A stretch of DNA of 64,000 nt. It comes from Crossaster papposus. Lineage: Eukaryota; Echinodermata; Asteroidea; Velatida; Solasteridae. The notes below the pieces were generated by a model. The model was given only the letters and a program-made list of their open reading frames with translations, ran no database searches and had not been told where the DNA came from. The stretch's first letter is position 1; each line of letters starts with the position of its first letter. Location of the stretch: NCBI GenBank assembly GCA_037893245.1, contig JBAIAA010000253.1:1-64000 (forward strand), read 5' to 3'. Below, one piece after another: positions 46,927 through 49,900 of the stretch. Position numbers and translations under genes: made by a program.

Positions 46927-49900
46927 CTATAGGAAAAATAAAAAAATAAAAAATAATAATAATTAGCAGAGTTGTAGTCGAGTACTTCCCGAGTATTTTG
47001 TTTAGTCCCAAATATTGAGCTTTTTGTTGTAAACAAAGCAAGAGAAAGATATTAAAGGTAGGATACACCATTGGTAATTACTTGAATTATCATGAATGGG
47101 TAGATTTCGGGGGTTGTATTTCATAGTAAATATCGTTTAACTGACCTGTCCGAAGTTTTACAATCATGGATGCCGAAAAAAGCACCAAAAAAAAAAGCGT
47201 TTGTTTTCAACCGGCGTCGAGCAGTTATTCTTATGTTATTTGTGTTTTTTCGCAATCGCCGTACGGCGATCGCAAATTTGTTTTTATAAAATTAAATTTT
47301 TCAGAATAATTACAGGATATCTATCGCAATCATTTTGCTGGATGCCTAGAATTATTATTCACTTTCAGATGAGTAAGATATTTCATAATAATTCAGTAGT
47401 AATTTTTTTCCGATATTTGCAAATGGTGTATACTACCTTTAATGGTTCTAAACTCCATGTGAAATTATCCCATCTGGCATGCAGTCATTTTTAAAGAAAA
47501 TAGCTAAAGAATGCAATTTCCAAATGTACGTCTCCGAGACGCACATTTGGAAAAGTTTGCAAATACTGCGCGGACAGTATTTATTTTTATCCGTGCTACA
47601 CAAGGATCTATTTTTTCGGCCTGTGAAGGGATGGAACGCAAAATTTTTGTTTTTGTTACTGGTACCCGGCCTGTCGGTACTTACGTTGTTTTTTATGTTG
47701 GGCTTCATGGACAGGACACCGCTGATTGCTTCTCCCCGCTTCACCGTGATGTAATCGTCAATGTAGAACACCGTCTGTTTCCAGTGGGTGTAAGGGGCGT
47801 CCGGGGCTGCAACGAGATACGGATCAGAACATTTAGGAAAACGTCAAGTGGACTGGGAAAGATGATTACCGTGCAGGGGATTTTTCTCGGAAGCCAGTGT
47901 TATAAGATGAGCGTGGAAAGTGGTAGAGCACGTAAAATTTGAGGTGGTCTGGCAAAATGAGACGGAACTGGGCACAGTGCTGAAAACTGAAAACTGAAAA
48001 ATAATGAACCAAAAAAAAAAAAAAAATTCTCCCCAGATTCATTGATATTTGTAATCTTTGGTATGTCTACTAACTACATTTTTTCAAGAAATATTATGAA
48101 AGTGTGTAATAAAAGTGTTTTTAAGAAAAAACAATTTGTATTTTGTCCATAATGTGTACAAAACTCTATAAACTTCACAGGCCTTTTTCTAAACATTTTA
48201 CTTTGGCGACAGGTTGATAAATATGAACTTTAAACAGCCATAACTTGTTAATAACGGAATGTCCGATTGAAGTGCAACAAACAGCATTGTAAGGAGAATG
48301 TTATCCTCTTTTTAAATGACCAGGCTTGCGAGAGGGCTTGCGAGAGAGCTTGCGAGAGGAGAGGGCTTGCGAGAGGGCTTGCGAGAGGGCTTGCGAGAGG
48401 GCTTGCGAGAGGGCTTGCGAGAGGGCTTGCGAGAGGGCTTGCGAGCGGACTTGCAGGGAATCAAAAACAACTCTGATTAATTAATACACAGAAAAAGAAA
48501 AAAACCAGAGATACTCACAGGTTGAGAAGCCGATTCGTTTATGGCACATGCTGAAGTCGATGTTGAAGTAGGTGACCAGTGCTTGGATGTAATCGTTGCG
48601 CTGGACGGTCAGGCAGAAATTTGAGGTGAATGCCAGATCGTCAATGGTCACTGTGTACATGTCAATTTCCTGGACAACAAAATAAATAAATAGGTTTTCT
48701 CGATCAAGTTTGTAAGAAAAACGTTTTGTGTATGTATACTTATTCAAGTGAATCGGGTCATCGTGCCAATCCTGGCACAGTTTTCTTCATGAGGAAGGTG
48801 TTGGTCACACTGTTTGGGATCCACACCATCCACAGGTCGTCTGCTTGTTCAACTACAACATCCACAAATGGCTTGCTGTTCAGTAAATTCATGGAGGTCT
48901 AGGTCACCCTCTGTTAGGGATCCTCTAAATCCTCAACGGGTTTGCTGAATCAACAACCACAATTGGTTTGCTGATTCAACTCCAACATCCACAATCGGTT
49001 TGCTGATTCAACTACAACATCCACAATCGGTTTGCTGATTCAACTACAACATCTACAATCGGTTTGCTGATTCAACTACAACGTCCACAATTGGTTTGCT
49101 GATTCAACTCCAACATCCACAATCGGTTTGCTGATTCAACTCCAACATCCACAATCGGTTTGCTGATTCAACCACAACATCCACAATTGGTTTGCTGATT
49201 CAACCACAACGTCCACAATCGGTTTGCTGATTCAACTCCAACATCAACAATTGGTTTGCTGATTCAACTCCAACATCCACAATTGGTTTGCTGATTCAAC
49301 TACAACATCCACAATCGGTTTGCTGATTCTACTACAACATCCACAATCGGTTTGCCGATTCAACTACAACATCCACAATCGGTTTGCTGATCCAACTACA
49401 ACATCCACAATTAGTTTGCTGAATTAACTACAACATCCACAATTAGTTTGCTCATTCAGCAACTTTATCCACAATTGGTTTGCGTATTTAGGTCAGATAT
49501 TTTAAAGTGTATTGTTACCTTTATGAGGAAGGTGTTGGTTACTCTCTGCTTGGAATCAACTACGTCAACAAGCGGTTCGCTGATGGCAATATCCCTGATA
49601 CAGCTCATGTCAAAGCCATACACGTTGTCCCACCCTACACCAAACAACATAAGGACACGTTAACGTTAGAATGTCAAGACTCAAAATATATTAGTAATAC
49701 TAGTCCAGCGCGAAAACAAACACGAATTTGTGATGCCAAGAGTGAATCATTCGCGCCGCTAATTCGCAAAAGTGATTACATTTAAACTCCGGTGAATTTC
49801 GCAGCGATTGCTTGGCAACGTGCGATTTGCATCGTGTTTGCTTCGAGTAGTAACAATCTAGACTTGGGGCAAATCAAGCAATTTTCGAATCGATTCCGAT

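Follow-up and report, generated by a model that had tools for sequence, protein, structure and literature searches.

A 32-bp intronic minisatellite resembling the neighbouring PRMT1 coding exon in Crossaster papposus

How does a tandem repeat within an intron come to resemble the coding exon beside it? The window analysed here (the whole 64,000-nucleotide stretch of Crossaster papposus DNA) poses this question at a PRMT1 gene, where an array of 32-bp units lies a short distance beyond the donor site of an exon whose sequence the units recall.

The PRMT1 exon and the adjoining array

The minus strand of the window carries most of a PRMT1 gene, with nine coding segments from 56393 to 46843 located by tblastn and by reading of the junctions. 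The tblastn query was human PRMT1 and returned 11 rows, of which the two with E values of 5.0 and 3.7 were set aside as chance matches, with the nine mapped segments leaving out the first exon or exons. Comparison of the hand-joined translation with solved structures placed PRMT1 chains at the top (6nt2_A, E = 1.1e-176), ahead of PRMT8 (1.2e-169) and PRMT3 (9.1e-99). The gene product thus appears nearer to PRMT1 than to the other solved arginine methyltransferases, albeit by a small margin over PRMT8 and with a hand-joined query. The array occupies the 847-base intron that follows the sixth of the nine mapped segments (exon 7 of an earlier note on this DNA), with the features of this region as follows (a slash marks the splice junction):

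49519..49634, minus strand: PRMT1 coding exon, proposed source of the repeat, with donor AAG/GTAACA (tblastn, 78.9% identity over 49632-49519)
49553..49584, minus strand: part of the exon with homology to the 32-bp unit (ATCAGCGAACCGCTTGTTGACGTAGTTGATTC; local alignment score 32)
48973..49484, minus strand: 16 full 32-bp units, read in register
48947..48972, minus strand: variant unit of 26 bp that closes the array on the side away from the exon (with gaps, 22 of 26 aligned bases shared with the exon and 24 of 26 with the consensus of the units)
48519..48671, minus strand: next PRMT1 coding exon, bounding the intron on its downstream side (the intron lies between 49634-49519 and 48671-48519), with acceptor ...TTGTCCAG/GAA (tblastn, 64% identity over 48678-48520)

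Tandem Repeats Finder (TRF) places the array at 48951-49483, with a period of 32, 16.7 copies, 91% matches and 0% indels, and its head-to-tail units fall within the roughly 10-100 bp of a minisatellite. The earlier note had described about 15 units at 48955..49470; the array stands, but its count and extent are revised to 16 full units and the 26-bp unit, from 49484 to 48947. Its placement just downstream of the exon and in the same orientation holds, as both lie on the minus (gene) strand with 34 intron bases between the last base of the exon at 49519 and the first unit at 49484, and the 11-residue translation previously given for the unit in one register is correct. The consensus of the unit on the gene strand is AGCAAACCGATTGTGGATGTTGTAGTTGAATC, with three of the 16 units identical to it. 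The unit adjacent to the exon (49484) is the most diverged, matching the consensus at 24 of 32 bases and showing a mean identity of 0.73 to the other units, compared with 0.85-0.93 for the remaining 15.

Alignment of the consensus to bases 49581-49553 of the exon gives 24 identities over 29 positions, with one 3-base insertion. Two units in succession, aligned to the exon, score 32, a value reached by none of 5000 dinucleotide shuffles scored against both exon strands (mean 14.4, sd 2.5, maximum 30), and the claim that the units resemble the exon is therefore borne out by the shuffled control that had been proposed for it. A scan of the array-masked window with the unit (200-base tiles, both strands, whole window) ranks a lone unit at 48877-48846 first with a score of 58, followed by the source exon at 32 and a tile at 25 holding a further exon copy (copy A, below), with all other places scoring 24 or less. 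When exons and introns of the gene were compared more generally (8 introns, 16 comparisons, first 1500 intron bases, gene strand, 200 shuffles each), only the source exon against its downstream intron stood out, scoring 44 against a shuffled maximum of 25; the other 15 comparisons scored 14-24, each score being reached by 7 to 193 of the 200 shuffles. A blastn search at E values up to 0.5 did not match the exon's own segment to the array, its sensitivity being too low for a match of this kind. The observation of an exon-like minisatellite in this intron is confirmed.

Partial exon copies and the probable order of events

Past the far end of the array lie three further elements, absent from the earlier note, which follow one another in transcript order:

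48888..48948, minus strand: copy A, a degenerate 3' half of the exon (score 45 against the exon with flanks)
48846..48877, minus strand: the lone 32-bp unit, flanked by copies A and B (identical to the consensus at 28 of 31 aligned bases)
48785..48845, minus strand: copy B, a degenerate 3' half of the exon (score 59 against the exon with flanks)

Copy B begins exactly 32 bases past the start of the lone unit. It is matched by whole-window blastn (E = 8e-5), and its score of 59 is reached by none of 5000 shuffles (maximum 44). Copy A is marginal when taken alone, with one of 5000 shuffles reaching 45 (mean 19.3, sd 3.6, maximum 47), and both regions were picked after the sequence had been read. 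Scanning of the whole window with the 63-base exon half gives scores of 57 for copy B, 41 for copy A and 35-38 for most array tiles, with unrelated places scoring no more than 31 among the 45 best rows. Both copies are damaged: copy A contains two in-frame stops and its alignment ends before the donor, and copy B carries a 2-base deletion and has AA at the place of the exon's donor GT, its end reading ACCAACACCTTCCTCATGAAG against ACCAACACCTTCCTCATAAAG in the exon.

In a MAFFT alignment, the consensus, the 26-bp unit, the lone unit and copies A and B all carry A at position 4, G at position 15 and T at position 18, where the exon carries G, T and C respectively. Individual units depart from this pattern at position 15 in two of 16 and at position 18 in two of 16, with the exon-specific T15 seen in one unit and C18 in two of the 16. 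The pattern hinges on the placement of the 3-base gap: aligned pairwise, the unit and the exon have this gap at another place, and position 15 is then not comparable. As these bases are common to units and copies and unlike the exon, a single common source is suggested, with the units, the lone unit and copies A and B deriving from one duplication. Because the consensus shares three non-exon bases with the copies, the array is also more likely to have come from an intronic partial duplicate than from the exon directly. The proposal of the earlier note, in which the array was seeded by a segment of the coding exon, is accordingly upheld for its exonic origin, to which both the match and copies A and B point, and is amended for the direct seeding.

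The direction of change at two places can be judged from three aligned PRMT1 chains, which we take to be mammalian. At the codon that includes base 4 these chains carry glutamate, a residue that the exon keeps, and the A found there in the intronic copies is therefore probably the newer state. Downstream, the chains read DPKQ, with copies A and B similarly encoding Asp-Pro (GATCCC), and the exon encoding Asp-Ser (GATTCC). The simplest reading of these bases is that a copy of the 3' half of the exon reached the intron earlier than the Pro-to-Ser change in the exon, that the copies then decayed, and that a 32-bp segment of the copied stretch was subsequently amplified.

A probable neutral origin and its alternatives

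We consider it probable, at roughly 85%, that the array is a minisatellite of exonic origin, formed by partial duplication of the exon and then by slippage or unequal exchange, and now neutral. Such a history would begin with one ancestral duplication of part of the exon into the downstream intron. An internal segment of the duplicate may then have been amplified by replication slippage or by unequal exchange between short similar words, for which the exon words ATCAGCGAA and TTCCAAGCAG, some 29 bases apart, are candidates. The core of the array would subsequently have been homogenised whilst its exon-side edge drifted, and the array would now leave with the spliced-out intron and have no function of its own. 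Errors in the copying of DNA, with no consequence for fitness, most likely account for the array.

One observation fits plain neutrality poorly: in the 13 core units (48973-49388), six of the eight distinct variants fall at third codon positions when read in the frame of the exon. The binomial probability of this excess is 0.014, from a test picked after looking and with tiny counts, and nothing is therefore built upon it.

A coding role for the array was considered and rejected, as 32 is not divisible by 3 and open stretches on the gene strand inside the array do not exceed 39 residues. Open stretches of at least 30 residues starting in the array are mostly 31 residues long, with stretches of 54 (inside the array) and 75 (running out of it) on the other strand, and retention of the intron would end the PRMT1 frame inside the first unit, in a 57-residue stretch from 49638.

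The alternative that survives best, though we regard it as improbable, is that the intron repeats act on PRMT1 splicing, whether by serving as decoy exonic enhancers, by folding of the RNA, or by offering cryptic donors within the copies. The array lies 34 bases past the donor and on the same strand, with the exon-like words ATCAGC, AACCG and GTAGTTGA present in most units. The 12 highest-scoring donor-like sites in 48400-49640 all lie outside the array itself, however, and the best acceptor-like sites of the array are 50% pyrimidines compared with 75% at the true acceptor of the next exon. A splicing role of the array was rejected on these grounds, its sites comprising no good donor and only weak acceptor-like sequences, and the suggestion of the earlier note that the units act as decoy enhancers or affect splicing gains no positive support. 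Copies A and B do carry donor-like sites, at 48907 (AGG/GTGACC, score 4.5) and 48826 (ATG/GTGTGG, score 6.1) respectively, compared with a score of 6.9 for the true donor; these scores come from crude splice-site scoring, and the sites count against a reading of the intron repeats as inert in splicing. The RNA fold of the array is slightly better than that of its shuffles (z = -2.2, with three of 100 shuffles equal or better), but this bias is weak and was computed on a repeat, and RNA structure as a function was likewise rejected. In amphioxus, comparable repeats are reported to cause no interference in regular splicing (PMC3087553, PMC3902484).

Less probable again is an origin as a decayed duplicate of an alternative (mutually exclusive) exon that was later expanded by slippage. 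Together, copies A and B span most of the 3' half of the exon, and one frame through the stretch of copy B has no stop for 46 residues. This is opposed by the state of the copies themselves, with two in-frame stops in A, the deletion in B and no GT at its donor place, and by the 5' half of the exon, of which blastn at E values up to 0.5 finds no copy in the window. Neither copy amounts to a whole additional exon with its splice sites and an open frame.

Still harder to credit is a mirage-like repeat (see below) built from exon-internal sequence that continues to trade sequence with its source exon by gene conversion, with the array serving as donor or sink for changes in PRMT1. This reading is raised because most of the core variants would be silent in the frame of the exon and because exon-specific bases recur in the units; the counts behind both are those given above. 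Least credible of all is a minisatellite of unrelated origin that resembles the exon by chance, as the shortness of the match (29 bases with a 3-base gap), the failure of blastn at E values up to 0.5 to join the exon segment to the array, and the one of at least 5000 shuffles that scored 30 against the observed 32 are set against the absence of any shuffle at 32, a next unrelated place at 24, the adjoining copies A and B and lone unit, and 15 other exon-intron comparisons each equalled by at least seven of 200 shuffles.

Known systems and other repeats of the window

Ordinary intronic minisatellites, or VNTRs, are a known class of tandem repeats, and the array resembles them in its period of 32, its 16 units and its 91% matches. 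It differs from them in that its likely seed, the neighbouring coding exon, can still be recognised. Tandem exon duplication with mutually exclusive exons offers a second likeness, as extra exon-derived sequence lies in the adjacent PRMT1 intron; unlike such duplications, the copies here are broken 3' halves only, having neither an acceptor side nor a placed donor GT.

The closest known system appears to be the "mirages" of amphioxus, described in two reports as minisatellite-like arrays in which exon-intron boundaries of Adh3, the globins BflGb6 and BflGb9, TnC and PGBD5 are duplicated in tandem, with repeat units of 10-72 bp in the Adh3 mirage, with instability of length, and with boundary units that escape homogenisation (PMC3087553, PMC3902484). 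Like these, the PRMT1 repeat lies in tandem beside a coding exon and is partly made of it, and thus holds sequence of the adjoining exon. The mirages of those accounts span the boundary, whereas the 32-bp unit matches the interior of the exon and has no splice junction, and copies A and B run towards the exon end but lack the donor GT. Since the PRMT1 unit spans no exon-intron boundary, it lacks one defining feature of a mirage, and by analogy the array may work in a similar way without that feature.

The open-licence papers listed in the literature searches included no account of the PRMT1 array, and a search of viral contigs with the unit pattern gave 0 matches, a result that is uninformative for an animal genome. 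The interest of the locus lies in the birth of a minisatellite being readable from its neighbours, with a source exon, decayed intermediates and an expanded array all within about 850 bases. It also suggests that an exon-seeded repeat with no splice junction is possible, unlike the mirages described. Were sequence to pass between arrays of this kind and the exons that seeded them, a conserved enzyme would face a mutational hazard.

Other arrays in the window were compared with the nine exons, with 11 picked from 40 TRF rows giving a lowest E value of 0.067 and nothing convincing as exon-derived. Arrays of 11- or 12-bp units with a similar look occur at 24877-26191, 34746-34864, 48323-48454 and 54280-54330 (GGGAGGGACCT, TGAGTGGCCTG, GGCTTGCGAGAG and TGAGGGACTTG) and are possibly one dispersed minisatellite type; none of them matches the PRMT1 exons convincingly.

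Two further PRMT1 introns contain repeats. In the intron after exon 51292-51149, a direct repeat at 50850-51123, traced to 50850 only, has a spacing of 172-173 and ends 26 bases from the exon; each of its copies holds the palindrome ACAGTGCATGCACTGT, and no exon sequence was seen in it. The intron after exon 53486-53325 contains inverted repeats at 53001-53308 (23 nt, 83% complementary, 262 nt apart), which are perhaps a small non-autonomous transposon. Outside the gene, the start of the window is occupied by a very large satellite whose units measure 68 bp (343 copies with 86% matches over 1-23339, and related rows to 24028), and a tRNA gene lies on the minus strand at 34451-34522 (Rfam RF00005, 45.1 bits).
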